Shown here one piece after another: positions 12,801 through 44,229 of a stretch of DNA of 64,000 nt. The notes beneath the pieces were generated by a model. The model saw only the letters and a list, made by a program, of their open reading frames with translations, did not search any database and was not told the origin of the DNA. The stretch's first letter is position 1; each line of letters begins with the position of its first letter. The position numbers were made by a program, and so were the translations under genes. Source of the stretch: Desulfurobacterium sp. TC5-1 (GTDB taxonomy: Bacteria > Aquificota > Aquificia > Desulfurobacteriales > Desulfurobacteriaceae); contig NZ_ATXC01000001.1 in the NCBI RefSeq assembly GCF_000421485.1, positions 620,001-684,000 on the forward strand. Reading direction: 5' to 3'.

Positions 12801-13233
12801 CAGGAGAAGTGAAATTACCTACGATGAAAGCGGAAAAAGAATGTTAGCGCTCAAAAGCAACAGGCCTTACGAAATTGAAGTTTACTGGGAAAAATTTAAA
12901 GCTTTTAGAACTCTGTCTAAAGACACCAATCTTCAGACAAGCAGACTGCATAAACTGATAGGAATCCTTTACTCTAAAGTTCAATATGAAGAGTTTGCAG
13001 ATTGTGGAGCGTTTCTCGCCTCCTCATTTATAAATTGGCTTGAACTCGGTAAAAATGAAGACAGAAGAAAATTAATAAAAGAAATTTTTGAGCTGGACGC
13101 GGACTGCAAAACTTTATCCGAAGACTTTAAAAGGGAACTCAAAGAAAAATTAGAAATCAAAGAAAACATACTGCTCTTTTTAGATATGTTCAATTTCTGG
13201 CATACTGCATTAAAGGAGGTAAAGGATGAGTAA
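9877..13233 (+). CDS. cas10: Divergent Cas10 (Csx11/MTH326-like, type III-C large subunit), catalytic motifs missing
   Basis: Large subunit of the type III complex, 1118 residues from ATG 9877 (GGGTGGGG upstream). Near the N-terminus, LLFNLGKTH at residues 24-32 aligns with the LLHDIGK of Cas10 HD domains, but the HD doublet is replaced by F26-N27. A zinc ribbon is intact: C399, C402, C417, C420. No GGDD tetrad of the cyclic-oligoadenylate synthase palm occurs anywhere; the only double-glycine stretch is KGGYGLKNK. Cas10 proteins with inactivated palm and strong divergence define subtype III-C. I therefore infer a structural, non-signalling large subunit. No CARF or Csm6/Csx1 effector is encoded nearby, which fits. 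Confidence 0.75.
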   Translation: MAELDLNRLKQNRNEVLKAEIGALLFNLGKTHAGINNWKKYFPTVNSKFDKYKKYYSKHIFENELRDTDIKLKDFIFNEMVKLPDNTNNTNLNWLEFFKGDASGENIIQKIFFRGCENVNSGIDKGSPQDANQLENLWISNAFGSLKKEINDENDFDSSRLCFFRDFHRFLEDKYYYRSPDWKEIRNWVFEHVKPWYSRLLSDSRFPVNDVTLFDQAYMTASMFKAVLASLYLDNSNYQNFIKNPQLIKWSVLGIQYDKLALAEKGLKVASIKWYRETVNKVDNQLKKLIEIEYPLGNEVYRDETGIYFVVGENIKGDKDSEFYKLNNALSVIKTKIQDIFTRNFEGEIYPAILLTEPSRGLMNLGHLVEKAKENFLKAEYPSDFKTKLKHDSNPNGICQICNMRLAHKGNKENLICNVCFKRQQGRVNDWLTNAEKETIWIEEIKDKNDRVAYVSLKFELDEWLNGNMLNSLLQNTADFQLCYQNMKDTLECVSNLYKNNAFDVNSFLLDSSGNFNECLLIKLENLIKKVSDISFNRKLGKLTLHVDSNSVELKDKRGKLQPLKNLLNNEIFKKFIKLYDFSIFNNLSKDAYNGCKKNNESFDDFIKQIFFGSIRGNQWENFIKKSTINNKIKWENETIDWSKLNNQDIEFLAYLILQFLLRKNPSPARLRRIWETTKEFFEEMHQELEEILKIPEWRKKRLVWEVTLDENNRLDKSTELEGDRLLFWAEKEGSKAKIYLISSIESFLEKYGKEKIREILNSKDNTEIIDSLKGGYGLKNKKLLLKEYKTKEHKIELDIKENLKEIISYKPFALITNPSPVNYQVIIPAEYLPELIDRTIEKYNKEFKYVYGKLPIHIGIVISDYKKPVYVNLKALRKIRRNVKDTDKLYRPVNAGRFYTLQKQKFTYATPEEKAAEAYYSLYWDNPEGKGYNFYINPENGRKKWISTICEFNADEKVQIIPNTFDYEYLDHNIRRSEITYDESGKRMLALKSNRPYEIEVYWEKFKAFRTLSKDTNLQTSRLHKLIGILYSKVQYEEFADCGAFLASSFINWLELGKNEDRRKLIKEIFELDADCKTLSEDFKRELKEKLEIKENILLFLDMFNFWHTALKEVKDE

Positions 13234-14347
13234 TCAAGACATTGAAAACAAAAACAGTATGGTTGAAGAGATATCAATTTTTGCCATGGCAATGGATCCC
13301 GTTCATGTAGGAACCGGTGGTTATTCCATAGGAATGGTTGACAACACCATAGTAAGAGACCCTATCACCAATGTACCTAAGATTCCGGGAAGTACTCTGG
13401 CAGGCACATGGAGATATTATGTAACTTTGGAATTACAAAGTCATTTTAAAGAAGAATATAAAGCAGACCTGAAAAAAAGGGAAGAACATCAAGACGATAT
13501 TTCCAAGCTTTTTAACAATCCAAAAGATTGGATGAAAAATTTTAACGGCAATAGATTCGCAAAAATTAAATGTGCAGGACAGGATGAAGAACCACAAAAA
13601 ACCTTAGAAGAATCTAAAAACACAGATACCGGACATTGCGGACACTGCATAGTCTGTAAAGGTTTTGGATTTTCTAAAAAAAACATGCGCTGGCAGGGAA
13701 TGATATTTTTCAGCGACTTACAAATTTTGTTCTTCCCCGTATTTACGATAAAAGGAACAAAGTGGATAACCACAGCTTCAAAACTAAAAGAAACAGGCAT
13801 AGCACCCGAGATTGAAGATAAACAATCTGAGGATAAAATAAAAACGGAAACCGGAGATGAAAAATACCTGAACTTAGGCTGGCTGTACTTAGAGGTTGAA
13901 GGACCACACAACATAGACAAAAACAAATTTAAGATACCGAAATTTGGAAAGTTTAACTTAAAACCTGAAGATGTAATCGTCGTGCCTGAAAGTTTATTCG
14001 CCCACATAGTGAACTCAAATTTAGAAGTGAGAACTTCTGTGGCCATAGACCCCATCACCGGAGCAGCAAAAGAGGGAGCACTATTTACATCTGAAGCTAT
14101 CCCGAGAGGAACGATATTACACGGCACGATAAGAATCTTTAATAAAAAAGCATTTGAAGGGAAGAAAAATGATGAAAGTAATTCGGAAACTCTTCCGGAA
14201 ACAAAATATTTAATCGAGGCTTTAAAAGAAAGCAGACATTTCTACGAAACTCTTGGAATAGGTGGCATGACTACAAGGGGTTTCGGGAGATTAATCATAA
14301 ACTCTAACGAATTTGAAGGAGGTGAAAGCAGTGGAAACCGCAAATAA
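13226..14347 (+). CDS. cmr4: Type III backbone RNase, Cmr4/Csm3-like Cas7
   Basis: Repeated backbone subunit that grips crRNA and cuts target RNA every six nucleotides. The opening HVGTGG...MVDNTIVRDPITNVPKIPGSTLAG is the family hallmark. D39 in MVDNT occupies the catalytic Asp position of Cmr4/Csm3, so RNA cleavage is probably active even though Cas10 is not. A zinc-knuckle insert GHCGHCIVCKGFGFSKK (about residues 131-147) is as in many Csm3-like proteins. The C-terminal loop is GIGGMTTRGFGRLII. 373 residues; ATG has a near-perfect ribosome site AAAGGAGG inside the end of cas10. Confidence 0.85.
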   Translation: MSNQDIENKNSMVEEISIFAMAMDPVHVGTGGYSIGMVDNTIVRDPITNVPKIPGSTLAGTWRYYVTLELQSHFKEEYKADLKKREEHQDDISKLFNNPKDWMKNFNGNRFAKIKCAGQDEEPQKTLEESKNTDTGHCGHCIVCKGFGFSKKNMRWQGMIFFSDLQILFFPVFTIKGTKWITTASKLKETGIAPEIEDKQSEDKIKTETGDEKYLNLGWLYLEVEGPHNIDKNKFKIPKFGKFNLKPEDVIVVPESLFAHIVNSNLEVRTSVAIDPITGAAKEGALFTSEAIPRGTILHGTIRIFNKKAFEGKKNDESNSETLPETKYLIEALKESRHFYETLGIGGMTTRGFGRLIINSNEFEGGESSGNRK

Positions 14348-14729
14348 TAAAGGCAAAAACATAGAAGCCTTAACAAGCACAATAGCCTACGAAATAGTCA
14401 GTAAAGGAATTTTAAACGAAAGCGAGATAAATAAACTGCTTGGAGTTTTAACAAACAACGGTGTCTATGCAATGTGGGTGTACGCTCAGGCAAATTTTAA
14501 AAATGAAAAAATCAGTGAGTTCGCAAGAAGAATTGAAGAAATTCCTCCGCTTAGCGACTTTTCAAAAGACGAAGGAACGCCTAAAGAGAGTAAAAGAATC
14601 GAGCGTGTAAACAATAACCTTAGAGAAATATCCGAGAACCTTCCCCAGCTTTTACTTCTGAAACAACTTCTGGAAAAAACACTAACTTATGCAAGATACC
14701 ATGCAAAAGCATCAGGAGATAAAAAATGA
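14331..14729 (+). CDS. cmr5: Type III small subunit, Cmr5-like (Cas11 group)
   Basis: A 132-residue, mostly helical, charged protein starting at GTG 14331 behind AGGAGGTG; an upstream in-frame TTG at 14313 has no ribosome site. Motifs such as LGVLTNNGVYAMWVYAQAN and LLLLKQLLEKTLTYARYHAKA resemble Cmr5, including the C-terminal YARYHAKA helix. Small subunits stack along the target strand in the complex. Assignment rests on size, helicity and position between cmr4 and the Cas5-group gene. Confidence 0.72.
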   Translation: METANNKGKNIEALTSTIAYEIVSKGILNESEINKLLGVLTNNGVYAMWVYAQANFKNEKISEFARRIEEIPPLSDFSKDEGTPKESKRIERVNNNLREISENLPQLLLLKQLLEKTLTYARYHAKASGDKK

Positions 14730-15577
14730 AGTGGTATAAGCTGATTTTTGAACAGGTACAGCCGATTCACGTTGGAAAACTCAACTGGGGAGTGGTATCT
14801 GAAACAGAAATATTTATTCCCGGACAAACCATGTGGGGTGCCGTTGTCAACGCGTATTTATGTAAAAATAAGCATTCTGAAATAAAGACCGTCCAGGAGA
14901 ACTTTGAAACTATAACAAATTTCTTTCCATCTTTTGATGAAGAAAATATTTTAGAACCTGCCTATAAGGACGGAGAATTTGCATACAAAACAAAAAAAAG
15001 CTTAATAACAGAAGAAAAATTCAGGATTTACTTTGTAAGTGCCGACTTCAAAACATCTATAAATCCATTTACTGTAACGGCTAAAGAAGAGCAGCTGTAT
15101 GAAATTGAATACATTTTGCCGAAGCCGAAAAGAGAATTTTTAGAAGATGCAAAGCAATTGGGTTTCAAAGAAAATCTCTACTGGATAGGTTTAATAAAAT
15201 TAAAAGAAGACGACATAAAAGAAGTATTCGAAAGAGGAAACTTTGAAATCTTTGTAGGCGGAGATGCAAGATACGGCTACGGCTTGATGAAACTAAAGAA
15301 ATATAAAGAGGCAGAAGAAAAAGAATTACAAAAATGGAACTTAAATGACGATGGAAAGTTCAATCATGATAGCAAAACACCTTTAAAAAATTTTTTAGAA
15401 TTTAGCAGCGGCATAAAGTTCAAAGGGGATATCAAACTTATTCCCGAAATGGATTTTTCTCAAAACACTTCTTCCGTAAAAAATGCAAAATTTTACATAG
15501 CAATAGGAAGTATGCTGGAAAACAATCCCCCTCATGATTTAATTTTAAAAAAAGGGAAATTTATTCTGGAGTCTTAA
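14726..15577 (+). CDS. Type III Cas5-group RAMP protein, Cmr3-like
   Basis: Predicted crRNA 5'-tag-binding subunit that contacts Cas10. The 283-residue protein opens MKWYKLIFEQVQPIHVG and has a mid-protein glycine loop FVGGDARYGYGLMKLKK, as in Cmr3/Csm4/Csx10 proteins. The C-terminal part is weakly conserved. Start ATG overlaps the small-subunit stop as ATGA. It completes a six-subunit set for the type III complex. Cmr3 is preferred over Csm4 from the company of Cmr1/4/5/6-like genes. Confidence 0.65.
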   Translation: MKWYKLIFEQVQPIHVGKLNWGVVSETEIFIPGQTMWGAVVNAYLCKNKHSEIKTVQENFETITNFFPSFDEENILEPAYKDGEFAYKTKKSLITEEKFRIYFVSADFKTSINPFTVTAKEEQLYEIEYILPKPKREFLEDAKQLGFKENLYWIGLIKLKEDDIKEVFERGNFEIFVGGDARYGYGLMKLKKYKEAEEKELQKWNLNDDGKFNHDSKTPLKNFLEFSSGIKFKGDIKLIPEMDFSQNTSSVKNAKFYIAIGSMLENNPPHDLILKKGKFILES

Positions 15578-17296
15578 ATGATAGAAGCAATTTATAACCT
15601 TGGAAAAATTTTAATGCAGGATGACGGCAATTCCGGCAAAGTAACGCCAGAGCCGGTCAGCGCAGACAGATTAATAATCATAAACCTTGATAAGGATGGA
15701 AAGCTTATTAACGTTACAGATACAAAAAATGTATCCGAATACGAAAAAAAACTACTTTATAAAAGAGTAAGAGCCTCCAGACGATGCAATTCCTGCACTC
15801 CCACATTCTTTCTGAACATAAAAGAACCGCAAAAAAGCATAACCTGCTTAAAGTCCATCTTTAACTGGATGAAAAACTATAACAGTTCGGTTAAAGAACC
15901 AGAAGACTATGAAGCAATTCTCAAAGCACTGAAAAGTTACCTGAAAGACTTTCCTCCGCAAAGCAGAGAAAAGATTCTTCTTACCGTTACCGTGGACGGG
16001 AATTTCCCCTCAGAAATTCCGGAGATAGTTAGCGCATTTGAAACCGGCTATGTTCAAGAACTTGGATTTAACGAAATCGGAACATGTTCTCTGTGCGGCA
16101 GCACTACCAGAATTACAGGGAAAAAATCCCCCTTTGCCTTTTACACACTTGATAAAGTGGGCTACATTTCAGGCTTTTCAACTAAAAATCACGGGAAAGG
16201 ATTCCCGATATGTTTTGAATGTTTCAAAAAGCTGGAAAAAGCCAAACAGTACATATCAAGCAGAAGTTTTATTTTAACCAAAAACGCTCCCAGATACTGG
16301 CTCGTCCCAGGTGTTATTTTTGACACAGAAACTTCTGACAGTAACTCACTCAAAGAACTCATTGAAAACATTTACGACCTGGAATACATGAAAAAGTATC
16401 TTCATTTAACAGAAACGGAACATCAAAAACTTGCAGATACAGAAGAAGATATTCTGGACATACTGAAAGAGCTTGAGGACTATCTCACATTCCACTTTAT
16501 TTTTATTGAAAAGAACCAATCTCAGGAAATCATTAAACTGCATATCCAGGACATCTATCCTTCAAGAATAAAAAAGCTTTTCGAAGCCAAAACCCACGTT
16601 GAAAAGAACCTGGAACTTAAAAGAGAATTCACTTTCGGCACTTTAGGTCAGTTTTTCTGGAAATGGGATAAGCACTCTAAAAGGAAAGACCTGCAGAAAT
16701 ATTTCCTTGATCTCATTGACCGGATATTTCGGGAAGTCCCTTTCTCAGAAGCCCTGCTCATAAAGTTCTTGCTTAATGGAATAAGACGAGCTTACCTTGA
16801 CGAAGAATACGATAAATTAACAGCACTCAATGCTTTAGCATCGTTCCTGTTTGTTAAAGCAACTACGGAGGGAATAATGGAAACTATCAAAACCGACGAC
16901 GTCAGGAATTTATTAGAAACTCTACCTCTGCTAAATACACCGGAAGCAAAAGGATTATTTGTCCTCGGAGTCCTGACACAGCGCCTGATTGACAAGCAGG
17001 CTGGAACCAGAAAAGGCAACAAACCTTTCCTTAAAAAACTTTCCAGCTTTAAACTGGACCAGAGAGGCTTTGAAAAATTGATGCCTGAACTGAGAGACAA
17101 AATGGAAGCCTACGAAATTTTTGGAAAATTTGAAAGGGAACTGTTTGACCTGGCTTCAGAATGTTTTGCTAAAGCCAACCAGCCCTGGAAACTTAATGTT
17201 GAAAAGATGAACTTTGTATTTGCAGTCGGCATGGGAATGAAGGACAAAATCTACAATAAAAAATTTGAGAACAAAACTGATGGAGGTAAATCATGA
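15578..17296 (+). CDS. cas8b: Type I-B Cascade large subunit Cas8b (Csh1)
   Basis: Large subunit that recognises the PAM in type I-B Cascade. 572 residues. Two cysteine pairs, C170-x2-C173 (GTCSLCGS) and C212-x2-C215 (ICFECF), form the zinc ribbon of the Csh1 family. A further pair C70/C73 sits near the N-terminus. The helical C-terminal half (about 330-550) includes LLIKFLLNGIRRAYL and the KLNVEKMNFVFAVGMGM ending typical of Csh1. It starts at the base after the stop of the type III module, and the frame is joined to cas7 by an ATGA overlap, so both effector modules lie on one transcript. Confidence 0.82.
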   Translation: MIEAIYNLGKILMQDDGNSGKVTPEPVSADRLIIINLDKDGKLINVTDTKNVSEYEKKLLYKRVRASRRCNSCTPTFFLNIKEPQKSITCLKSIFNWMKNYNSSVKEPEDYEAILKALKSYLKDFPPQSREKILLTVTVDGNFPSEIPEIVSAFETGYVQELGFNEIGTCSLCGSTTRITGKKSPFAFYTLDKVGYISGFSTKNHGKGFPICFECFKKLEKAKQYISSRSFILTKNAPRYWLVPGVIFDTETSDSNSLKELIENIYDLEYMKKYLHLTETEHQKLADTEEDILDILKELEDYLTFHFIFIEKNQSQEIIKLHIQDIYPSRIKKLFEAKTHVEKNLELKREFTFGTLGQFFWKWDKHSKRKDLQKYFLDLIDRIFREVPFSEALLIKFLLNGIRRAYLDEEYDKLTALNALASFLFVKATTEGIMETIKTDDVRNLLETLPLLNTPEAKGLFVLGVLTQRLIDKQAGTRKGNKPFLKKLSSFKLDQRGFEKLMPELRDKMEAYEIFGKFERELFDLASECFAKANQPWKLNVEKMNFVFAVGMGMKDKIYNKKFENKTDGGKS

Positions 17297-18210
17297 TTAG
17301 AAACCGCCGTGAGTATCTTTTTTTCTACGATGTAACCGATGCGAATCCCAACGGCGACCCAATGGATGAAAACAAGCCGAGAATTGATGAAGAAACAAAA
17401 ATCTGCCTCGTAACAGACAGCAGACTGAAGAGGATAATCAGGGACGAACTGGCAGACATGGGTGAAGAAATCTTTATAAGGGAAGAAAGAAAAGAAGACG
17501 GAAAATTAAAAACAAAAGAGGAGCTGTTAAAAAGTTACAACAAAGGAGATTACAACGAAATTCTTAAAAGATGCATAGATATAAGACTTTTCGGCGGAAC
17601 GTTTGCTATCGGAGACAATGCTAAAAGCTTTACAGGACCTGTCCAATTTAAATTCGGAAGAAGTCTTCATAAAGTAGATGTAAAACTTATCAAAGGAACC
17701 ACTGTTATGCCGTCAGGAGAACAAAGAGGACAGGGGACAATGACAGATTTTTACATAATTCCCTATGGACTTTTCTGTTTCTACGGAATAGCCAATGAAA
17801 AAGCATCAAATGATACACAGCTGACCGACGAAGATCTGGAAAAAATGACAGAAGCACTATGGAAAGGAATAAAAGAGTCAACAGATGTAATTTCCCGTTC
17901 CAAATTTGGACACATGCCGAGACTCTTAATAGAGATTATCTACAAAGAAGGTGAAAAGTTCCACATTGGAGAACTTAACAAAAGAGTTTCTATAAATAAG
18001 CCGGAAGCCCTTGATGATCTTGCAATAAGAGATATTGAAGAGTTTGAACTTGACCTTTCAAAACTCAAAGAAGCAGTACAGAAGCACAAAGACAAAATAG
18101 AAAAAGTTTACTACTGTATAGATGAAAGAGTTAAACTCACCGAAGGTTCCACACTGAACGAAGTTTTTGAAAACATCACTCTGGAGAAGTTTCCATGGCT
18201 TGCAGAATAA
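17293..18210 (+). CDS. cas7: Type I-B Cascade backbone Cas7 (Csh2)
   Basis: Backbone subunit coating the crRNA spacer. The N-terminus has the highly conserved Csh2 stretch FFYDVTDANPNGDP followed by DSRLKRIIRDEL, and a mid-protein VISRSKFGHMPRLLIEI. 305 residues is the normal size for Csh2. ATG has GATGGAGGT upstream within cas8b. No irregularity seen. Confidence 0.92.
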   Translation: MIRNRREYLFFYDVTDANPNGDPMDENKPRIDEETKICLVTDSRLKRIIRDELADMGEEIFIREERKEDGKLKTKEELLKSYNKGDYNEILKRCIDIRLFGGTFAIGDNAKSFTGPVQFKFGRSLHKVDVKLIKGTTVMPSGEQRGQGTMTDFYIIPYGLFCFYGIANEKASNDTQLTDEDLEKMTEALWKGIKESTDVISRSKFGHMPRLLIEIIYKEGEKFHIGELNKRVSINKPEALDDLAIRDIEEFELDLSKLKEAVQKHKDKIEKVYYCIDERVKLTEGSTLNEVFENITLEKFPWLAE

Positions 18211-18983
18211 TTGCTTTTGATATATGGGGAGAACTGGCACACTTCAGGCGGTTTTTTACCACTTCTTCTCCCCTCACTTTCTCTTTTCCGCCGCCAACAA
18301 CCGTTAGGGGAATAATCGGAGCCATTTTAGGACTTCAAAAAAATGAATACATAGAAATTACAAATCGGTTAAGTATCGGAATATATATCACTTCCCCTAT
18401 CAGGAAGCTAAGAACCGGGCTAAACATAATTTTCACCAAGGGAAGCGGTGGGAAATTTGAACCAACGCTTTTTAAAGATAAAAAGGGAGATGTTAAAAAA
18501 ACCGTTAGAACGCAAATTCAAGTAGAATTCCTGAAAGATCCTGGTTACAGGATTTTCGTAGCCGGTGACGAAAAACTTCTTGATTCCCTTTTGAACTATC
18601 TGCCGTACCACAAGACAGAATACACTGTTTCCCTTGGTCTTTCTGAATGCCTTGCCGATTTTAAATTTGCAGGTGAATTTACCGCTGAAGAAGTAGAAGA
18701 AACGAGCGAAATACATTCAGCAATACCAACAAGAAAAATAAAAAACATCAGCTTAAGCAACCAGATTAAACTGGCTAAAGAGAGAATTCCCATATATATG
18801 AACGCAGAAAGAATTGTTCAGGAATATGACAATATTGTATTTGAAACCAGCGGTAAACCAATTAAGGGAGCTTTTAAAAATGTCTTCCACATTAAAGAGA
18901 CCGGAGAAAACGTTCACCTGTTTACTGTCCCATCCCAACAAATGTCTAAAAGATCATTTGAAAAAGACGCAAAATCTGGTTGA
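18195..18983 (+). CDS. cas5: Type I-B Cascade subunit Cas5
   Basis: Binds the 5' handle of crRNA in Cascade. The opening FDIWGELAHFRRFFTTSSPLTFSFPPPTTVRGIIGAILG region is textbook Cas5h/Cas5b. The family end, a GENVHLF-like strand, falls near base 18925. The remaining roughly 20 residues (TVPSQQMSKRSFEKDAKSG) are read from DNA that also encodes the start of Cas3, so the overlap of about 104 bases is unusual. The original stop may have been lost or a small indel is present. It overlaps cas7 by 16 bases. Confidence 0.88.
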   Translation: MACRIIAFDIWGELAHFRRFFTTSSPLTFSFPPPTTVRGIIGAILGLQKNEYIEITNRLSIGIYITSPIRKLRTGLNIIFTKGSGGKFEPTLFKDKKGDVKKTVRTQIQVEFLKDPGYRIFVAGDEKLLDSLLNYLPYHKTEYTVSLGLSECLADFKFAGEFTAEEVEETSEIHSAIPTRKIKNISLSNQIKLAKERIPIYMNAERIVQEYDNIVFETSGKPIKGAFKNVFHIKETGENVHLFTVPSQQMSKRSFEKDAKSG

Positions 18984-21189
18984 AAAATACTTTCCTTATA
19001 ACGACAACACGGCTAAAGAACTTGCCGCTTACGCTGCAAGGTTCCACGACGCAGGTAAAGCAACATCGTTTTTCCAGGAATACATAAAAGGAAACGGAAA
19101 ATGGTCAAAAGAAAAGAACCATTCACTCCTCTCTGCTGTTATTCTTTATTACTATTTGAGAAAAATTAGAGGTATAAGTCCTTTACAGGCATTTCTTTCT
19201 TTTCTCGCAGTAAAAAAACACCATTCATTTCCGGAAGACACGTTTGAAAACGGCGGTATAATCAATGACACAGAACTGATAAAAAAACAACTTAATGCTA
19301 TTTCAAAAGATAATATCAAAGAACTTGGAATTCCTGTTACTGTTCAAGAACTAAAAGAATCCATCAATGACATAATCAAAGAATTAAAATATTTCAGAAG
19401 TCTAAGGAGATTTAAAAGAAATTTTGGAGAAATAGAGAACTTTTCAATATATACAACTTTTTTATCAATATATTCCTCTCTTCTTTTCTCCGATAGAAAA
19501 GATGCTGTTGATGCTCCTGAAGTAAGTTTCCCGGACATTCCTTATGAAAAGTTTAAAAATTTGATTGATTCCATTCCTTTAAAACGGCCAATAGATGAAA
19601 AAAGACAGGAAGCAAAAGAATTTGTGCTTTCTAAAGAATTCAATCTGAAACAGCGAATCTACTCAATAAACCTCCCAACGGGTTTAGGAAAAACTTACAC
19701 AGGATTTTTACAAGCACTCAAAATGAAAAAAATTCTAAAGGAAAAAACGGGCAAAAGTTTCAGGATAATATACGCATTACCCTTTATTTCCATTATTGAC
19801 CAAAACTTCGAAGTACTAAAAGAAAAACTTGAACAAATTATAGACAGCACAGATTCCAGACTGATTTTAAAACACCACCACCTCAGCAACTTTGAATATT
19901 TAACTAACAATTCTGAAATCCTTCCTTTTGACATCGCAAAAGTATTAACAGAAGGTTGGGAAAGTGAAATTACTATTACCACAATAGTGCAAATATTTAA
20001 TGCAATCTTTCCAAAAAACCGAAGCCAGGCACTTCGCTTTTCCAGACTTCAGAATACCATAATTATTCTTGATGAAATTCAAACTATACCTGTTAAATAT
20101 TGGAAAATTTTTAATGAAATCATTGAGGATTTATCAAAAAAACTTGATTTCTACATAATATTTATGACAGCAACAAAGCCAGCAATATTTACCAACCATA
20201 CAGAACTTGCAGGTGGAAAATTTTTTACAGGACTCAACCGATACGAAATAGAAATAGATCTGAAAGAACGTACCATAGAAGAATTTTTAGAAAAAATTGA
20301 CATTAACATTGAGAAAAGTCATTTGTTTATCCTTAACACAGTAAAGTCCTCCCAGGAAGTTTATAAAAAGTTAAGTGAAACAATCAACGGAGAAATTGAA
20401 TACCTGTCAAGAGCAATTACACCATTTGAGAGGAGGGAAAGGCTCAAAAAAATTAGAGAGGGAAAAGTCAAATATCTAATTTCCACTCAAATTGTAGAAG
20501 CAGGAGTTGACATAGATTTTGATGTAGTTATAAGAGATTTTGCTCCTTTTGATTCCCTTAATCAATCAGCAGGAAGGTGCAACAGAAACGGAGAAAAAGC
20601 AGGACTGTTTAAAATCATAAAATTAATTGATGAAAATAATCAACGTCCATACTGGAGCTACATATACGATCCCATCCTTTCTTCAGCCACTATGGAAATC
20701 CTAAAAGATAAACACCGTCTAACAGAAGAAGAATTTATAAAATTGACTGAAAAGTATTTCAATCTTGTTAAAGACAGAGCCACAGACGAAGCAAAAACTG
20801 TAAAACCTTTTTTCGAAGCTGTTAAGTATCTACGATTTCAACCCATGGAAAATTATAGATGCAAGGAAAATGAAAAATTTATTTGCGACATGAACCTTAT
20901 TGAAGAAGACTGTGGAGAGGAAATTTTTGTTCAACTTAATGAAGAAGCGGTTGAAATATGGAATAAAATGATAGAAATTGTCACAAAGTTAAAAAAAGGA
21001 AACCGTGAAGCATTTAAAGATTACCTGCGAATTAAGCATAAGTTCTACGATTTCGTAATAAAGGTGAATTTAAACAAAAAAATACCAATACCGATATCAA
21101 AAGAGCTTGGTTTTTACTTCATTCCAATAGAAGAATTAGACAATTATTATGATAAAACAGGACTTAAAGAACCTAATCTAATCTGGTAA
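18880..21189 (+). CDS. cas3: Cas3 HD nuclease-helicase (type I-B)
   Basis: Recruited by Cascade to unwind and degrade target DNA. I start at ATG 18880 (AAGGGAG upstream, residues MSSTLKRPEK), because LLSHPNKCLKDH that follows is the usual Cas3 N-terminus. The HD nuclease domain has H18, FHDAGK (H56-D57) and KKHHSFPED near residue 112. The helicase has Walker A LPTGLGKT (265-272), motif II DEIQ (398-401), motif III FMTATKP and motif VI QSAGRCNRNG (from 562). All catalytic residues are present in 769 residues. The start lies well inside cas5. Confidence 0.92.
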   Translation: MSSTLKRPEKTFTCLLSHPNKCLKDHLKKTQNLVEKYFPYNDNTAKELAAYAARFHDAGKATSFFQEYIKGNGKWSKEKNHSLLSAVILYYYLRKIRGISPLQAFLSFLAVKKHHSFPEDTFENGGIINDTELIKKQLNAISKDNIKELGIPVTVQELKESINDIIKELKYFRSLRRFKRNFGEIENFSIYTTFLSIYSSLLFSDRKDAVDAPEVSFPDIPYEKFKNLIDSIPLKRPIDEKRQEAKEFVLSKEFNLKQRIYSINLPTGLGKTYTGFLQALKMKKILKEKTGKSFRIIYALPFISIIDQNFEVLKEKLEQIIDSTDSRLILKHHHLSNFEYLTNNSEILPFDIAKVLTEGWESEITITTIVQIFNAIFPKNRSQALRFSRLQNTIIILDEIQTIPVKYWKIFNEIIEDLSKKLDFYIIFMTATKPAIFTNHTELAGGKFFTGLNRYEIEIDLKERTIEEFLEKIDINIEKSHLFILNTVKSSQEVYKKLSETINGEIEYLSRAITPFERRERLKKIREGKVKYLISTQIVEAGVDIDFDVVIRDFAPFDSLNQSAGRCNRNGEKAGLFKIIKLIDENNQRPYWSYIYDPILSSATMEILKDKHRLTEEEFIKLTEKYFNLVKDRATDEAKTVKPFFEAVKYLRFQPMENYRCKENEKFICDMNLIEEDCGEEIFVQLNEEAVEIWNKMIEIVTKLKKGNREAFKDYLRIKHKFYDFVIKVNLNKKIPIPISKELGFYFIPIEELDNYYDKTGLKEPNLIW

Positions 21190-21190
21190 T

Positions 21191-21694
21191 ATGGAATTAG
21201 AGAAAATTTTTGTAAACGGAACACTCATCTGGTATTACTACATTTGCAAAAGGGAGGTATGGCTTATTGCTCACGGAATAGAAGCAGAGCAGGATAACGA
21301 TTTCATCGCCGTCGGAAGGCTGATTCACGAAAAAAGATATAAGAACAAAGCAAAAGAGCTGTTGATAGACAATAAAATAAAAATAGACCTTCTTGAAAAC
21401 AGAAAAGTGATCGGTGAAATTAAGAAAAGTTCAAGGTTTTTAAAAAGTGCAAAGATGCAGCTTGCATTTTATCTGTATTACATAAAAGAACAGAAAGGAG
21501 AACTTTTAACGGGAGAGCTTTTCATTCCCGAAGAGAGAAAAAGAATACAGGTTAAACTGAGCAAAAAGCTTGAAGAAGAAATCAAAAAGACCATAAAGGA
21601 AATAGAAAGGATAATTGATCTTCCCCATCCTCCGCCGGCTAAAAAAATCAGATTTTGCAGAAACTGCGGATATAGAGAATTTTGCTGGAGTTGA
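21191..21694 (+). CDS. cas4: Cas4 Fe-S nuclease of CRISPR adaptation
   Basis: Trims prespacers and selects PAM orientation with Cas1-Cas2. 167 residues, RecB-like. C19 (YYICKREVWL) and the C-terminal trio FCRNCGYREFC supply the four cysteines for a 4Fe-4S cluster. The nuclease core is GRLIHEKRY, VIGEIKKSS and MQLAFYLYY. Starts at ATG 21191, two bases after the cas3 stop. Confidence 0.92.
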   Translation: MELEKIFVNGTLIWYYYICKREVWLIAHGIEAEQDNDFIAVGRLIHEKRYKNKAKELLIDNKIKIDLLENRKVIGEIKKSSRFLKSAKMQLAFYLYYIKEQKGELLTGELFIPEERKRIQVKLSKKLEEEIKKTIKEIERIIDLPHPPPAKKIRFCRNCGYREFCWS

Positions 21695-21696
21695 AG

Positions 21697-22671
21697 ATGA
21701 AACAGCCCTTAATAATATTCAAAAGCGGAACAATAAAAAGGGAACAAAACACAATATTTTTTATTGAATACGAAGGTAGAAAGCATGTAATACCCGTTGA
21801 AGCCATATCCGAAATTGAAATTTTCGGTGAAGTCACCCTTAACAAAAGGGCTCTGGAATTTTTCTCAAAAGCCAAAATACCAATTCACTTTTACAACTAC
21901 TACGGATATTACGTCGGGACATACTATCCGAGAGAACACCTGAACTCGGGATATGTAATCCTAAAGCAGGCGGAACACCATCTTGACCCCGACCTCAGAC
22001 TTTTCCTCGCAAAAATGTTCGTTTATGGAGCCTACAGAAACATAAGACAAAATCTCAAAAACTACGACCGTGACAAAAGTGTAGAAGAAATAGATGCTTT
22101 CGCAGACAAAATAGAAGACACAAAGAACATACAAGAACTAATGGCTATTGAAGGTAACATAAGAGAAACCTACTATAAAAACTTTAATAATATTCTAAAG
22201 CAATTCAATTTTAATAAGAGGCAGAAAAGACCTCCCGATAATGAAATCAATGCCTTGATTAGTTTTGGCAACACACTCCTTTATACAAAAGTCCTATCGG
22301 AAATCTATTTTACCCATCTTGATCCCCGCATAGGGTACCTTCACCAGACAAACAACCGGAGTTTCACTTTAAATCTTGATATTGCTGAAATCTTCAAACC
22401 CATCATTGTTGACAGAGTTATTTTTTCCCTTGTAAACAAAAAAGTAATAAACAAAAAACATTTTGAAATTGAAGCCGGAACTTGCTTTTTAAACGAAGAA
22501 GGTAAAAGAATATTCGTAAAAGCCTTTGAAGAACGCCTCAAAAACACGATAAAGCACAGAAAGTTAAACAGAAAAGTTTCCCTGCAAAGACTCATAAGAT
22601 TGGAATGCTACAAACTGATTAAACATCTTATAGAAGATGAAGTCTATGAACCTTTTATAACGAGGTGGTGA
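21697..22671 (+). CDS. cas1: Cas1 integrase (type I-B)
   Basis: Integrates new spacers at the leader end. The start is ATG 21697 (CTGGAG upstream), giving 324 residues. Metal-binding residues are E152 (MAIEGNIRETYY), H216 (GYLHQTNNRSF) and E231 (NLDIAEIFKP). The N-terminal beta domain and the KIPIHFYNYYGYYVGTYYPRE junction are typical of Cas1 from I-B loci. Immediately follows cas4 and is coupled to cas2 by TGATG. Confidence 0.95.
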   Translation: MKQPLIIFKSGTIKREQNTIFFIEYEGRKHVIPVEAISEIEIFGEVTLNKRALEFFSKAKIPIHFYNYYGYYVGTYYPREHLNSGYVILKQAEHHLDPDLRLFLAKMFVYGAYRNIRQNLKNYDRDKSVEEIDAFADKIEDTKNIQELMAIEGNIRETYYKNFNNILKQFNFNKRQKRPPDNEINALISFGNTLLYTKVLSEIYFTHLDPRIGYLHQTNNRSFTLNLDIAEIFKPIIVDRVIFSLVNKKVINKKHFEIEAGTCFLNEEGKRIFVKAFEERLKNTIKHRKLNRKVSLQRLIRLECYKLIKHLIEDEVYEPFITRW

Positions 22672-23392: not shown

Positions 23393-25380
23393 GTTTTAAG
23401 CGACTCAAGGAATGAACTAATAAAAAAGTAATTATACAATTTTGTTATTTAGAGTTTTAAGCGTACCTCTAAGAATGAAACTATAGGCTGTGAGTAAATT
23501 GCAGGGATTATAGTTTAAGCGTACCTCTAAGGAATTGAAACATTTTTAATGAGGTCATCCAAATGAAAAAAGTTTAAGCGTCCTCTAAGGAATTGAAACT
23601 ACTCTGATCTCTAATATCCCAGATTTATGAGGTTTTTAAGCGTACCTCTAAGGAATTGAAACGCCGTTATTTGATTTCTCTGTAGTGGTAATGGAATTTT
23701 TAAGCGTACCTCTAAGGAATTGAAACTCAGCATTAGTAAGGGATTGAACAAGGGAATGTTTAAGCGTACCTCTAAGGATTGAAACGGGACGATAAAAAGA
23801 AGTTTCGACAGCAGATACTGTTTTAAGCGTACTCTAAGGAATTGAAACTGTCTTTGCCCAGTCAGCACCCAAACGCTCAGTTTTAAGCGTACCTCTAAGA
23901 ATTGAAACTGCCATGAGTATCTGCAAAAACTTTCTCTGATAGGGTTTAAGCGTACCTCTAAGGAATTGAAACAGAGAAAACCATCTGCAGGAAGACCAAA
24001 AACATGTTTTAAGCGTACCTCTAAGGAATTGAACCAAATGAAAAAAGGCAAGGGCAAGAACCCCGTTTTTAAGCGTACCTCTAAGGAATTGAAACTATTC
24101 AACGCCAAAACAGTTTTTGACTGATGAAAAGGTAACGTACTCTAAGAATGAAACTAGATATGAATTTCTGCCAGTATGGCGATTTCGAGTTTTAAGCGTA
24201 CCTCTAAGGAATTGAACAAATATAAGGAACATTCTGAGACTTCTAACATTCTGGTTTTAAGCGTACCTCTAAGAATTGAAACTTTCTCACGTTCTTTCAT
24301 TCTTCTTCCTGTCGCCTTGTTTTTAGCGTACCTCAAGAATGAACTCCGCAACATCCCCGAAAATCACTTTTCAATTGTTTTAAGCGACCTCTAAGGAATT
24401 GAAACATTTTCCATGTCTGCTTCAGAAATCCCAGCTCTGTTTTTAAGCTACTCTAAGGAATTAAACTGTATAAGCAACGATTTAGAATCATGCCAGTCGT
24501 TTTAACGTACTCTAAGGAATTGAACACGTTGCATTGCGAACGGGAATCCGCTTTTTTTGTGTTTAAAGCGTACCTCTAAGGAATTGAACCGCATTTTCAA
24601 ACGATGAGGAAAGATCAAAAGGAAAGTTTAAGCGTACCTCTAGGATTGAACTTTTTCTACACCTTCACACTACGATAGGTCAACAGTTTTAGCGTACCTC
24701 TAAGGATTGAAACGCAACTGCAATCGTGAGGTTGGAGCTTCCGGGTTTTAAGCGTACTCTAAGGAATTGAAACCCATTGTAAGCAGGTTTGCCTGCATAC
24801 TTTCCGGGAGAAGGTTTTAAGCGTACCTCTAAGGAATGAAACTAGTGACAAGGAACATACGGCGGTGGCGTATCAGTTTTAAGCGTACCTCAAGATTGAA
24901 ACCAACTTGCTGAGAAATGAAATCACGAATCTTGAGTTTAAGCGTACTCTAAGGAATAAAAAAACTTTTTGTTCCGAAAAAGAAAATGCTGTTTTAAGCG
25001 TACCTCTAAGGAATTGAAACATAAAGGAGGAACAGCCTATAATACACTTCGGAAGTGTTTAACGTACTCTAAGGAATAAACTGCGGAGTTGCCTCGTCGC
25101 GAGAGCTCTGTTTAAGCGTACCTCTAAGGATTGAACTTTTGATCAAAGACTCTTCTCGCGCCTTTAAGTTTAAGCGTACCTCAGAATTGAACCTTGATGA
25201 GCTTCTGCCGAAGAGCTTCGCTTATACTCGTTTAACGTACCTCTAAGAATTGAAACTTATACTACTTACTTCAAGTATCGCTTGGTCTGATTGTTTAAGC
25301 GTACTCAAGGATTGAAACCACCTCCTTGTTTTGTTTTCATCCCCGTCTGGATCGTTTAAGCGTACCACTAAGGAATTGAA
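23393..25380 (+). repeat. Tract of deletion-type CRISPR repeats inside the array
   Basis: About 33 successive repeats lie here and most lack bases. Examples are CTCT shortened to CT, GG to G, TTTT to TTT and CC to C; one copy keeps only GCGACTCAAGGAATGAAC of its core. Substitutions are almost absent. The spacers here are probably affected too. Uncorrected single-molecule sequence in a region short reads could not reach is the simplest explanation; true decay is the alternative. Confidence 0.7.
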
Positions 25381-39335: not shown

Positions 39336-39713
39336 TCAGAGAGAAAATGAATGAGGAAGCAAACCACCAAGGGTAAATTTTTCTATCCTTTCATCAGAAG
39401 CAACGACAACCAAAAAGTCCCTATTGCAAAATTCTGAAAGAACCTGCCTGCATGCACCACACGGATAGGGCATTCCGTCAGGTGAATAGATTAAAATCTT
39501 CAAAAAATCCCTTACCCCTTCAGAAACAGCTTTAAACAGTGCAACCCTCTCGGCGCACATCGTAAGTCCGTAGGACGCATTTTCTACATTTACACCTGTA
39601 TAGACCTTACCTTCCTTTGTTTCTATCGCTGCTACAACACGAAAGTTTGAATACGGCGCGTAGCAGTTTTTTATATTTTCTTTAGCCACTCCAAGCAGTT
39701 CTTCAACTTTCAT
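39336..39713 (-). CDS. cdd: Cytidine deaminase
   Basis: Pyrimidine salvage, cytidine to uridine. 125 residues, the tetrameric form. Zinc ligands and catalytic Glu lie in TMCAERVALFKAV and MPYPCGACRQVL; substrate contacts are in VNVENASYGLT. It is the last gene of the PqqD-ATP-grasp-decarboxylase operon and overlaps the decarboxylase by 11 bases. Confidence 0.95.
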   Translation of the reverse strand: MKVEELLGVAKENIKNCYAPYSNFRVVAAIETKEGKVYTGVNVENASYGLTMCAERVALFKAVSEGVRDFLKILIYSPDGMPYPCGACRQVLSEFCNRDFLVVVASDERIEKFTLGGLLPHSFSL

Positions 39714-41064
39714 TTAACCTTAACCTCTCTGGAAGTCTCTCCCTTCTAACAATGTCTTCAAGAGTTTCTGCTTCCCTTATCAAATCAATTTCACCATTTT
39801 GACCTATGAGAACAACATTCGGTCTATAGCGGATAAACTGCATCCACTGCGTTACATTGTAGGCTCCGACAGGTGAAAGTATCAGATTTGTCCCTCTCGG
39901 AAGGGGCGGTAGATATGCAAGGTCATCAACAACATCAATGTTCATACAGAGAGGACCGTAAAGGACGCAAGGCTCTGAAGGTCCCTGAACTTCTCTATCA
40001 ACTTCAATGTTAAAGTGGTACCAAAATGCGGTAAAGAGAATGTTGACGCCTGCATCAAGGATGTAACCTTTTCTACCGTCAGGAAGCCTTTTGGTAGCGT
40101 GAACCTGTGTTATCAGATAGCCAGCCTCGTCAACAATTGCTCTGCCACTTTCTATTATCAGCTTTGGAAAATCTCCCGGTCTCAAAGAAGAAAGAAGGGC
40201 GTTGCATACTCTATCGGCAATCTCGTCAATCGACGGAACTGCAACTTCCGGCGGTAAATAGACACCTTTAAGTCTGTTCCTTGATGGAAAACCGCCACCA
40301 ATATCAATGTACTCAATCTTAAATCCAAATTCATCTTCAACTTTATAAGCAAAATCAACCATCTTTCTAACTTCTGTTTCATAGGCTTTTGGTTCAAGTA
40401 TGAATGTTCCTATGTGACAGTGAAGACCGACCAATTCAAGCTTTCCGCCAAAGGCAATACGCTTAACGGCATCAAAAGCCTGACCTGACTCTAAATTAAA
40501 CCCAAACCTGCTCCACTGAGGATGGATACCCGTATCCATATTCAACCTTATTGCAACTTTTGGCTTCACACCAAGCTCTACTGCAACTTCCTCAAGGTCT
40601 GCAATCTCTTCAAAAGTGTCTATGTTTATCCTTGCTCCCTCAGATACAGCGACTTTAAGAGCCTCAATAGGTTTATAAGGACCATTGAAAACTATTTCGC
40701 TACCTTTGACTCCAAGTCTTCTTGCCTTGCTGTATTCAAATTCTGAAACAACTTCTGCCGTTTCACCTTCACCGTGCAGAACAGCACAAATTGCGTCAAG
40801 ATAGTTTGTCTTGTAGGACCATGAAAATTCAACGTTGGGATAACGTGTGGTGAAAGCTCTTTTTATCTCTCTAAACTTTGAACGGAGGGTTTTTTCTGAG
40901 AAAACAAACAGCGGCGTGCCAAACTTTTCTACAAGATCCGCTATTTTTACACCGTCAATCTCTTTTCTTACTTTTCGGGAAAGCGGTGAGGCAAAACTTC
41001 CAAATTTATTCATCATACCAGTGTGAAGTTTAAATATCGCCGGTTTCTCGTAAGTCTTTTTCAT
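39703..41064 (-). CDS. PLP-dependent decarboxylase (LysA-like fold) with RiPP-leader-like N-terminus
   Basis: Fold-type III decarboxylase acting on an amino acid or a peptide end. The PLP Lys is in FSWSYKTNY, then GLHCHIG, YIDIGGGFPS and IIESGRAIVDEAG; the C-terminal Cys is in LYGPLCMNIDV. These are all LysA/ornithine-decarboxylase group motifs. Residues 1-24 lie before the normal fold and read YEKPAIFKLHTGMMNKFGS, which resembles the Y-x-x-P-x-[L/I] leader motif bound by PqqD-like RRE domains. A PqqD-like gene is two genes upstream. Role therefore probably not plain lysine synthesis. 453 residues; overlaps both neighbours. Confidence 0.75.
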   Translation of the reverse strand: MKKTYEKPAIFKLHTGMMNKFGSFASPLSRKVRKEIDGVKIADLVEKFGTPLFVFSEKTLRSKFREIKRAFTTRYPNVEFSWSYKTNYLDAICAVLHGEGETAEVVSEFEYSKARRLGVKGSEIVFNGPYKPIEALKVAVSEGARINIDTFEEIADLEEVAVELGVKPKVAIRLNMDTGIHPQWSRFGFNLESGQAFDAVKRIAFGGKLELVGLHCHIGTFILEPKAYETEVRKMVDFAYKVEDEFGFKIEYIDIGGGFPSRNRLKGVYLPPEVAVPSIDEIADRVCNALLSSLRPGDFPKLIIESGRAIVDEAGYLITQVHATKRLPDGRKGYILDAGVNILFTAFWYHFNIEVDREVQGPSEPCVLYGPLCMNIDVVDDLAYLPPLPRGTNLILSPVGAYNVTQWMQFIRYRPNVVLIGQNGEIDLIREAETLEDIVRRERLPERLRLNES

Positions 41065-42089
41065 CTTTCACCTCTCGTGACTATTTTCTGGAACGTATCC
41101 ATATCGGTTACAAAATCGTCCGTAAACCTTATATAAAGCTTTCCAGCTTCGTAATCGGATCTCCTCTCAGGTTCTCTGCCAAGGGCAGCATCAAGAAGCC
41201 TTGCAGGAAGATTAATTCCAACACCAACAGAAAAATAGACCCAGGCTGGAAAACGAGGATTTATCTCTATAAGATAAATATCATCACCTGAGACGATACA
41301 CTCAAGTTCAAAGGCACCTCGCCACCTGTACTTTTCAACAAAATTCTCTGCCGCTTTAAGCATTTTTTCATGTTTAACGGTAACACCTGTCCATATTTTC
41401 CCGAGTGAGGTTATCCAGAGTTTCTTTATTCCTACCATCCCGAAATGACCACCTTCACCATCACCAACACCCACAACATTCATCTCTTCACCGGAAATAA
41501 CCTTTTGAACGATTATCGGATATCCCCACTCGGAGGCTATTTTGTTGAAATAGGAAGTGGCTTCCTGATAGTTAAAGGCTTTGTAAGCTTTGTAGAAAAT
41601 CCCCTTTATCATAACGGGAAAACCAATTTCGTTAATGGCTGCGGTTAAATCCTCGTAGGAAACGACTATAAAACTCTCTGGCACTTTTAAACCAATATCT
41701 TTTGCTAACTCCGATACCCTATCTTTTGAACGAAGTTTAAACTGCTCCTTCGTAGGAAGGAAAGTCGATATTCCATAGCTATTAAGTTTTTCACTGTTTG
41801 CGATAAACAGGGGAAGTTCTGCATCAAGCGTGGGTATGACTGCATCAAGCCCAGCAGTTTCTTTTATGTAGAGAAGTCTGTTGATAAACGGTTCCTCACC
41901 TTCCGAAGGATACGGCATTATGTAAACCCTGTTAATCAACCAATCCATGTAAACGCCCGGTTCCATCGCATCGTATGCCAATCCAACTATCGCTGTTTCT
42001 TTATATTTCTCTTTAATGCCTTTTATAACCCCAATACCTGGACCTGGATTGTCAACAGCGTTTATTCCGGAGACGGCAACTTTACACAT
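41061..42089 (-). CDS. ATP-grasp ligase
   Basis: Forms an amide or peptide-like bond through an acyl phosphate. Starts at ATG 42089 (AGGGAG upstream), giving 342 residues. There is a pre-ATP-grasp Rossmann part (VSGINAVDNPGPGIGVIKGIKEKY). The ATP-grasp core has the Lys strands FPVMIKGIFYKAYKAF and YPIIVQKVISGEEMNVVGV. The Mg-binding end AFELECIVSGDDIYLIEINPRFPAW is intact. It resembles CarB-like orphan ligases. Flanked by the PqqD-like gene (8-base overlap) and the decarboxylase (4-base overlap). Confidence 0.82.
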   Translation of the reverse strand: MCKVAVSGINAVDNPGPGIGVIKGIKEKYKETAIVGLAYDAMEPGVYMDWLINRVYIMPYPSEGEEPFINRLLYIKETAGLDAVIPTLDAELPLFIANSEKLNSYGISTFLPTKEQFKLRSKDRVSELAKDIGLKVPESFIVVSYEDLTAAINEIGFPVMIKGIFYKAYKAFNYQEATSYFNKIASEWGYPIIVQKVISGEEMNVVGVGDGEGGHFGMVGIKKLWITSLGKIWTGVTVKHEKMLKAAENFVEKYRWRGAFELECIVSGDDIYLIEINPRFPAWVYFSVGVGINLPARLLDAALGREPERRSDYEAGKLYIRFTDDFVTDMDTFQKIVTRGER

Positions 42090-42342
42090 TTTCTTCTCCC
42101 TCTCGACCTGCAAGTCCTAAAAGTCTCAATTGCTCAATAAAATCAGTAACATCTCTCGTCGCCTCTTCCCTGTCAACTTCAAATTCCTCAGTCAGAGCCT
42201 CAACAATATCCTCAACATCTTTACCCTCTTTAAGCAAGTTGAGAATAAACAATCCCGTTTTATTAACTGTGAAACTGTTCCCCGTTTCTGGGTCAAAGAT
42301 GAAACCCTCCTCGCTTATAGCCAGTCTATTCAGTTTATTCAT
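42082..42342 (-). CDS. PqqD-like peptide-recognition protein
   Basis: 86 residues, winged-helix PqqD/RRE family. FIFDPETGNSFTVNKTGLFILNLL is followed by the helices DVEDIVEALTEEFEVDREEATRDVTDFIEQLRLLGL. In characterised RiPP systems such proteins hold the leader peptide for the modifying enzyme. Here the partners are an ATP-grasp ligase and a decarboxylase, with no radical-SAM gene and no obvious separate precursor. ATG has GGAGGAG six bases upstream. Confidence 0.82.
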   Translation of the reverse strand: MNKLNRLAISEEGFIFDPETGNSFTVNKTGLFILNLLKEGKDVEDIVEALTEEFEVDREEATRDVTDFIEQLRLLGLAGREGEENV

Positions 42343-42355
42343 AACTCCTCCGCAA

Positions 42356-43153
42356 TTACTGAGATATCATCGCAGCTATATCTCTCGGTAAAACACCGTT
42401 TTTAGCCGCTATAGATCTTAACGTCTCATCAGGTAATGCCACTATTCCTTTTTTCTGCAGCTTTTCCATACACTCATCCACAGTGAGTCCATTCATTAAA
42501 CAGGCTTCTTTAAGCGTCATCCTGCCAAAACCCACTCTCATTCCCGTTGTATATGTCCTTCTAACTGCCCTCTTTATAAGATTATAAACCATTGCAGGTG
42601 TAAGATGGTTATTTTCCGCTATCTCTTTTAAAGTTTCGTCTGGCGAAGCTGAAATTCCGTTTTGATGAAGTACAGAAAGAACAGTCTGAAGCGGAATGTC
42701 ATCTTTCAGGCATAGCTCTTTCAAAGTCATAAGTTCAGCATGGGGTAGAGGTGCCGCAGGAAGACGTCTTTCCCAACTTTTCTTTATCCCTTGCTCAATA
42801 TTGATAATGGTTGAAAATGGTGGAAGTCCGGCAATTGTAGCAGCGGTGCAGATAACGACCACCATGGCAGAAACGAGACTTTCCCTTTTAACCAGGTAGT
42901 TTTTAAGAGGTTTCCAGTTTAAAATTGTGTGCCATACGGCAAGAATAACTATGCCGATTCCAGATATAACATGAACTGCTTCCCACTGATCTTTTGAAAG
43001 TCCTAAAAGTCTCCATCCACTCCAGTAAGCAACCCTCCCGTAGGGCATTATGTAAAGAACGACGCTACTTATTATCAGAACCACCAAAGTGTAAAAAAGA
43101 AAGAGACTTACAAAAACACGTGAATTGCAAGATTTAGCGGACTTCTTTTTCAT
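42356..43153 (-). CDS. DUF4405-like membrane protein with two tandem soluble repeats
   Basis: 265 residues. The N-terminal half has three helices. His residues in EAVHVISGIGIVILAVWHTILNWKP could ligate haem, as in cytochrome b561-like/DUF4405 proteins. The C-terminal half repeats a module of about 55 residues twice. The first copy begins MTLKELCLKDDIPLQTVL and the second MTLKEACLMNGLTVDECM, each ending in a P-D-E-T-L-(K/R)-x-I-A helix. The repeats look like small helical recognition domains. First gene of the PqqD operon. Confidence 0.7.
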   Translation of the reverse strand: MKKKSAKSCNSRVFVSLFLFYTLVVLIISSVVLYIMPYGRVAYWSGWRLLGLSKDQWEAVHVISGIGIVILAVWHTILNWKPLKNYLVKRESLVSAMVVVICTAATIAGLPPFSTIINIEQGIKKSWERRLPAAPLPHAELMTLKELCLKDDIPLQTVLSVLHQNGISASPDETLKEIAENNHLTPAMVYNLIKRAVRRTYTTGMRVGFGRMTLKEACLMNGLTVDECMEKLQKKGIVALPDETLRSIAAKNGVLPRDIAAMISQ

Positions 43154-43206: not shown

Positions 43207-44229
43207 TTATCGGTTCTGCAATTTAAATTTTCTGTTAAGCCTGTTACAATTCCTTATCTTATATGTTACTCCTCTTTTTGGATTTTTGATAGTGCAGGCC
43301 ATTAGACCTTTTATGTTTCTAAACCTCCAGAACGGAGGCACGTAGCCGGCAACCTCTATCGTATCACCGGGAACAATATCAAGGGAAGGGTAAAGCCATA
43401 TAGGTGCAACCGCTATCTCTTCCTTACCATTTGGTGTTTTCACTTCAACTACCCACCATATAACCCTTTTGTTACCATAACCTGGACGCTGGTAAACTTT
43501 CGTAACCCTTCCACTTACGGTTATTGTTTGATAAGCAGCAACACTTCTTCCGTTATCTCCATAAACAACGCCTGCCTCGTGCTTTGAACCGACAATAGCT
43601 CTGTATTCAGCAGGCGTTATAAACTTAGGTTTATATTCTATACCGTACCTTCTCAGTATGGCCGTAAAAGCCCTCATGTGATTTCTCGAACCTTTCATAA
43701 GATTTTCATAAACAGTCGCAATGTCCCTGTTATCAGTCCTTTTTAGAGCATCCTGAAGATCTTTTATATCAAGGTCTTCTATAGTCGCACCAACTTCAAG
43801 GGCATCTATAAGGGACTTACTACCCTGTTTCACAAGTTTTGTATAAAGTCTCTGAAGTTTCTTATTCTCAAATTTCCCAAGTTTATCTCCCGTCCTTGCA
43901 ACAGGATCCTCAAGGTTGTACCTATCAATCAAAAACTTAAGCATATCCATGTGTCTCTGCTCTGAACGGGCAATGTTTCTGAAAACCGGCATCTGCCACA
44001 TTTCATAAAGAGCTGTGTAAACGTCCCTTGCTAATTTTTCCTCCTCTCTCATATGAAGAAGGTCTTTAATCTCCTGCTTACTGAGAGGCTGTTTTGGAAG
44101 TGATGCCACGTAGGCAGGGCCTATCCCCGGTAAAACAGTCGCATTTGTTGCAGCGCTAACTGTTGCACATGAAAATAGATTTCCCGCAAGAACTACTCCA
44201 GACAGTAGAACCGTTATTAACTTTCTCAT
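43207..44229 (-). CDS. Exported DUF2202 ferritin-like protein with C-terminal OB-like domain
   Basis: 340 residues. A signal peptide (LITVLLSGVVLAGNLFSCATVSAA) is followed by a ferritin-like four-helix domain: LLHMREEEKLARDVYTALYEMW, then RNIARSEQRHMDMLKFLIDRY, then an E/H-bearing second pair ending GSRNHMRAFTAILRRYG. The E-x-x-H pattern suggests a di-metal site. After about residue 220 a strand-rich segment (VSGRVTKVYQRPG through GDTIEVAGYVPP) looks like an OB fold not usual for the family. The start has AAAGGAGGAAGCT. Preceded by a sigma-54 promoter. Confidence 0.8.
   Translation of the reverse strand: MRKLITVLLSGVVLAGNLFSCATVSAATNATVLPGIGPAYVASLPKQPLSKQEIKDLLHMREEEKLARDVYTALYEMWQMPVFRNIARSEQRHMDMLKFLIDRYNLEDPVARTGDKLGKFENKKLQRLYTKLVKQGSKSLIDALEVGATIEDLDIKDLQDALKRTDNRDIATVYENLMKGSRNHMRAFTAILRRYGIEYKPKFITPAEYRAIVGSKHEAGVVYGDNGRSVAAYQTITVSGRVTKVYQRPGYGNKRVIWWVVEVKTPNGKEEIAVAPIWLYPSLDIVPGDTIEVAGYVPPFWRFRNIKGLMACTIKNPKRGVTYKIRNCNRLNRKFKLQNR

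Follow-up and report, generated by a model that had tools for sequence, protein, structure and literature searches.

A stretch of 64,000 nucleotides from Desulfurobacterium sp. TC5-1 (Aquificota; contig NZ_ATXC01000001.1, positions 620,001 to 684,000; hereafter the window) encodes a PqqD-like protein, an ATP-grasp ligase and a pyridoxal phosphate (PLP)-dependent decarboxylase, whose N-terminus resembles the leader peptides of ribosomally synthesized and post-translationally modified peptides (RiPPs). The analysis suggests that the PqqD-like protein is a discrete RiPP recognition element (RRE) that would bind this leader-like segment of the enzyme, here called the tag, in place of a precursor peptide. 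We give a probability of roughly 0.6 to the account as a whole, in which RRE docking would place the tagged decarboxylase by the ligase, with conjugation of an amino acid and transport of the product across the envelope. The computed basis consists of conservation, disorder, co-occurrence, gene order and conserved pocket residues. Recognition of the tag by the PqqD-like protein, which the first-pass annotation of this DNA had proposed, withstood each computational test with a clear outcome and is predicted from six lines of evidence: the presence of the tag in all full-length relatives, its disordered tail, the conserved PqqD pocket, the co-occurrence of the two proteins, the retention of the tag in unlinked genes and the negative search for a precursor.

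Tag conservation and co-occurrence with the PqqD-like protein

The decarboxylase begins with MKKTYEKPAIFKLHTGMMNKFGS, residues 5 to 23 being YEKPAIFKLHTGMMNKFGS. Relatives were collected by scanning the genomes of 84,980 species, which returned 365 relatives, of which 80 were kept. One scan pattern included the tag, and an unbiased subset was formed by the relatives without that exact string, found by the C-terminal pattern YN[VN]TQWM alone. A close orthologue of the decarboxylase was present in 12 of the first 21 genomes, always with the tag (12/12). The motif [Y/W]xxPx[ILVMF] was found in all 90 full-length decarboxylases, which come from many phyla, and in 69/69 of those retrieved independently of the tag; the leader-like N-terminus stands as first described. 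YxKP was present in 85/90 and the NK half of the tag in 79/90. Among 54 diverse decarboxylases, Pro8 was invariant and Tyr5 was found in 53, while the linker that follows the tag was variable and gapped. The tag uses the full sets of four proline and four glycine codons, indicating that the conserved unit is the peptide and not the DNA. YxKPxI occurs 19 times in the source genome, but only at the decarboxylase does it fall at the beginning of a genuine gene.

Decarboxylases of the Thermosulfurimonas and Campylobacterales types have lost the NKFG half and retain YxKPxI, which makes the YxKPxI core the indispensable part of the tag. A divergent decarboxylase in a cluster with two ATP-grasp genes also keeps the tag, with the N-terminus YEKPTIVRN; this cassette (L141, G058:C301:1-4769) encodes a TPR protein, PqqD, two tandem ATP-grasp proteins and the tagged decarboxylase. 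The tag's other half, GxMNKFG (residues 16-22, positions 40999-41019), is conserved in most lineages and extends past the presumed RRE footprint; it possibly contacts the ligase. In an AlphaFold2 model built on the 54-sequence alignment, the predicted local distance difference test score (pLDDT) of the decarboxylase falls below 50 at residues 1-3 and 6-29 and exceeds 90 onward of about residue 31, giving the conserved and predictedly disordered tail the look of a docking motif.

The PqqD-like protein scored 74.6 bits against PF05402 (curated cut-off 23.4), and its profile matched best the lasso peptide RREs TbiB1 and TfuB1, followed by 9x90, PqqD itself and LppB (9x8z). Discrete RREs, PqqD among them, recognise W/Y/LxxP (PMC12710340). 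In the crystal of LppB with its leader, Asp70 holds the Tyr, Val35 and Phe74 hold the Pro, and the kink is fixed by Asn33. Thr30, Leu32, Phe74, Met78 and Leu83 hold the hydrophobic residue at the second position after the Pro; complex formation was nearly abolished by N33A and lowered by D70A (PMC13381572). LppB Asn33, Asp70, Phe74 and Met78 align to Asn27, Asp64, Phe68 and Leu72 of the protein studied here, which are conserved in 61, 63, 64 and 62 of 65 sequences, respectively, and Leu77 is also among the conserved leader-binding residues.

Across 319 genomes searched, PqqD accompanied the tagged decarboxylase in 48 of 49 genomes, as raw counts that ignore kinship, in line with the expectation of the first-pass annotation that the extension should not be conserved in genomes devoid of a PqqD-like gene. 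In 198 genomes from the phylum of a Desulfobacterales relative (L057), PqqD and the decarboxylase were found in the same 10 genomes, nine of which also carry UT/M23, a fusion of a urea-transporter domain to an M23 peptidase. Among 121 genomes from the phylum of the source organism, PqqD was present in 38 of the 39 with the decarboxylase; in the sole exception (G010) the decarboxylase gene lies at a contig end and is broken by an internal stop. PqqD was found without the decarboxylase in three genomes, with completeness of 83% and 71% for two of them and a rating of 95% for the last, a 1.1-Mb draft. In three loci (L032-L034) the decarboxylase stands alone and keeps its tag; these contigs were considered as possible exceptions and discarded, as PqqD and UT/M23 are encoded elsewhere in the same genomes. 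A 429-residue frame in G136, a candidate fusion of the same PqqD family, was likewise rejected, being a protein of another kind, a PqqD joined to a radical-SAM-like part (CxxxCxxC). Tandem duplications were seen in L023 (188-3849) and G259:C65, where two PqqD genes of the same family lie by one decarboxylase; L023 also carries a second ATP-grasp fragment behind its first PqqD.

No open reading frame (ORF) of at least 30 residues bearing the motif was found near the approximately 99 clusters, and the source genome held no short precursor gene with the same motif (Ile at its last position), although a precursor with another motif would fall outside these searches. Lasso cyclase, B2 protease and radical-SAM genes did not recur among the conserved neighbours, single neighbours being only partly annotated.

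Proposed docking and alternative explanations

The assignment of the enzyme as a LysA-fold decarboxylase holds for its fold, and not for its closest affinity. It missed the cut-offs of both the diaminopimelate decarboxylase equivalog TIGR01048 (230 bits against 298) and the N-citrylornithine decarboxylase FslC model NF041039 (211 against 500). By sequence it is nearer to N-citrylornithine decarboxylase (2e-84) than to the best diaminopimelate decarboxylase (3e-63), N-citrylornithine decarboxylase (7kh2) is also nearest in fold comparison, and the two share the GPxCM and GAYN motifs. The source genome has a separate LysA-like gene (C1:1164647), and the tag region is missing from the aligned part of both LysA and N-citrylornithine decarboxylase. 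The substrates of N-citrylornithine decarboxylase and BtrK are conjugated or carrier-held amino acids (PMC7857480). Since the nearest enzymes act on conjugates and the partner is an ATP-grasp protein, ligation plus decarboxylation of the conjugate is the chemistry we infer.

In the proposed mechanism, the PqqD-like protein would act as a discrete RRE on the N-terminus of the decarboxylase. Tyr5 would enter a first pocket and form a hydrogen bond with Asp64, Pro8 would lie against Phe68 with the backbone kink fixed by Asn27, and Ile10 would fill a second pocket of Phe68, Leu72 and Leu77, as in solved RRE-leader complexes. The decarboxylase so held would be placed near the ATP-grasp ligase, as PqqD proteins do for modifying enzymes, allowing an intermediate to pass between them. 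The ligase would join an amino acid by an amide bond and the decarboxylase would remove the carboxyl group from this amino acid in its conjugated form, a reaction of the type of N-citrylornithine decarboxylase and BtrK; by family analogy, this would be the chemistry of the pathway. The product might then cross the envelope via UT/M23, a 14-strand barrel and a TPR protein. That the tag is the ligand of the PqqD-like protein is, to judge from the sequences, quite probable; that the decarboxylase is thereby docked to the ligase has about an even chance, and export of the product, as opposed to import or sensing, is a tentative choice drawn from family analogy.

Several points limit or weigh against this account. 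Covariation between tag and PqqD in 71 pairs was in slight excess, and this only among the top pairs, and the MNKFG half, conserved in most lineages, is left unaccounted for by RRE binding alone. The AlphaFold2 model is a monomer, with which packing of the tail on the dimer partner remains compatible, and substrate, step order and transport direction derive from family analogy.

Three other explanations would give the tag a different role. The decarboxylase could itself be the modified substrate, carrier-like or self-modifying, its tail presented by PqqD for the ATP-grasp enzyme to attach something. ATP-grasp enzymes elsewhere ligate amino acids to carrier proteins, Lys and Asn are frequent in the tag (K12, N19, K20), and the NKFG half is conserved past the RRE footprint; however, no residue outside the presumed footprint is universal, 14/54 sequences have Arg, Pro or Gln in place of K12, and the loss of NKFG in two lineage types that keep YxKPxI makes this unlikely. 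Nor do we favour the tag as a structural part of the enzyme (a dimer contact, active-site lid or folding element) with a coincidental likeness to leaders. The tag is about as conserved as the enzyme body and the model is of a monomer only, but its predicted disorder, its absence from the aligned related enzymes and its co-occurrence with a PqqD that retains the residues for YxxP binding leave this reading improbable.

A true RiPP pathway, in which the partner of PqqD is a precursor that is unlinked or missed in annotation and the tag is a leader mimic or fused remnant, draws on the fact that discrete PqqD-like proteins usually signify RiPPs (PMC7470986). We regard it as rather improbable in view of the negative motif-based precursor searches, the single PqqD of this family in the source genome and a tag that is universal rather than occasional. 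Ordinary amino-acid metabolism, by a diaminopimelate decarboxylase paralogue beside unrelated genes, has in its favour the homology registered by TIGR01048. It is very improbable given the separate LysA-like gene, the motifs common with N-citrylornithine decarboxylase and a gene order that recurs in many phyla.

Relation to known systems

The discrete RREs of the lasso, LPP and PQQ pathways (TbiB1, 5v1u/5v1v; TfuB1, 6jx3; LppB; PqqD) share the PqqD fold with the present protein, as well as a [Y/W]xxPx[L/V/I/F/A]-type ligand and the conserved Asn (for Pro) and Asp (for Tyr). In contrast to those pathways, the putative ligand here is the N-terminus of a 450-residue enzyme; the motif searches yielded no precursor with a core peptide, and neither a lasso cyclase nor a radical-SAM enzyme recurs among the conserved neighbours. 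FslC/FigC of rhizoferrin synthesis, the nearest relative of the decarboxylase by sequence and fold, follows a ligase and works on an amide conjugate; it is only about 30% identical, lacks the tag and a PqqD, and has a NIS synthetase as partner, where the present system has an ATP-grasp protein. The butirosin pathway offers a further likeness, with BtrJ, an ATP-grasp enzyme, and BtrK, a decarboxylase of LysA fold whose amino-acid substrate is held by a small protein. There, however, BtrI is an acyl carrier protein, whereas PqqD has no carrier role and the decarboxylase bears the tag. In borosins the precursor is fused to its methyltransferase, and the fused peptide is both substrate and product; a RiPP-type segment is fused to an enzyme in both cases, but here it would be a leader-like binding segment only.

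RRE-leader recognition is known; the apparent novelty, as read from sequence comparison, is an RRE with an enzyme tail as its conserved, precursor-free ligand, which was not found in the open-licence PubMed Central literature. The same literature contained no paper combining PqqD with ATP-grasp and decarboxylase, with a urea transporter or with a pyridoxal-dependent decarboxylase, and nothing relevant to the UT/M23 fusion. Genome mining by RREs assumes that a discrete PqqD-like protein means a modified peptide; if such proteins also work as adaptors that dock enzymes, part of the clusters predicted as RiPP pathways would be misassigned, and enzyme assembly would gain a natural pair of tag and adaptor. 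The gene set also hints at an uncharacterised metabolite common to many unrelated bacteria.

Gene inventory and the transport arm

The features of the locus are listed in Table 1. The five genes that the first-pass annotation had placed here, from the DUF4405 protein to the cytidine deaminase, were borne out in position and family by Pfam and NCBIfam.

Table 1. Features of the PqqD-decarboxylase locus, in order of transcription (window positions).
Feature	Position	Strand	Basis and remarks
DUF2202 ferritin-like protein	43207-44229	-	PF09968, 4e-60; first in conserved upstream block
DUF4405 membrane protein with C-terminal helical repeats	42356-43153	-	PF14358, 3e-15; accessory, lineage-restricted
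PqqD-like protein, putative discrete RRE	42082-42342	-	PF05402, 8e-21; profile matches TbiB1, TfuB1, LppB
ATP-grasp ligase, carbamoyl-phosphate-synthase-like	41061-42089	-	Pfam/NCBIfam; longer TTG frame from 42113
PLP decarboxylase, alanine-racemase fold, with N-terminal tag	39703-41064	-	Pfam/NCBIfam, fold; nearest N-citrylornithine decarboxylase
Leader-like tag, decarboxylase residues 5-22	40999-41052 (core Y5-I10, 41035-41052)	-	Conservation, predicted disorder
Cytidine deaminase	39336-39713	-	TIGR01354, above cut-off

Overlaps of a few bases link the PqqD, ligase, decarboxylase and deaminase genes. For the ligase, alignment of relatives makes the ATG at 42089 a likelier start than the TTG at 42113. 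DUF2202 also precedes DUF4405 and PqqD in Desulfurobacteriaceae and in Thermosulfurimonas-type loci, and DUF4405 is linked in just 15 loci. In the DUF4405 protein, helical segments are repeated after the membrane part (LKELCLKDDIPLQTVLSVLHQNGI / LKEACLMNGLTVDECMEKLQKKGI). The cytidine deaminase, at first counted as a member of the cassette, is linked in only five loci, all of one genus, and is probably an incidental genus-level neighbour outside the system.

The usual order in relatives is PqqD, ATP-grasp, decarboxylase, UT/M23, barrel and TPR. Loosely defined His/Asp motifs of UT/M23 were found in 59-60 of 60 full-length copies, and fusions with conserved zinc-site motifs lie at L022:6942-9041, L038:7358-9445 and L123:6516-8660. 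The outer-membrane barrel was modelled with a signal helix and 14 strands (pLDDT 92), its nearest structures being OmpG and CymA. The source genome carries all six members across three loci, with UT/M23 and the barrel at about C1:464515-467500 and the TPR gene at C1:615669-616250, approximately 4 kb beyond the window; the transport arm, unlinked here, is adjacent in most relatives. The earlier remark that no transporter gene is present is therefore correct for the window and not for the genome. Carriers include Aquificota, Thermodesulfobacteria-like bacteria, Desulfobacterota, Campylobacterales, Ignavibacteria, Cyanobacteria, giant sulfur bacteria and others. That leader-like tags dock an enzyme to an RRE throughout the family, in a widespread, hitherto undescribed six-gene pathway that would make a small molecule and carry it across both membranes, is a proposition that we rate at even odds.

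Elsewhere in the window, type III CRISPR-Cas-like genes (RAMP-type, Cas10-, Cas3-, Cas4- and Cas1-like, named by eye) occupy positions 7040-22671. They are followed at about 23600-24100 by repeats, where the ORF 23611-24108 represents the translation of a CRISPR-like repeat (FNSLEVRLK).

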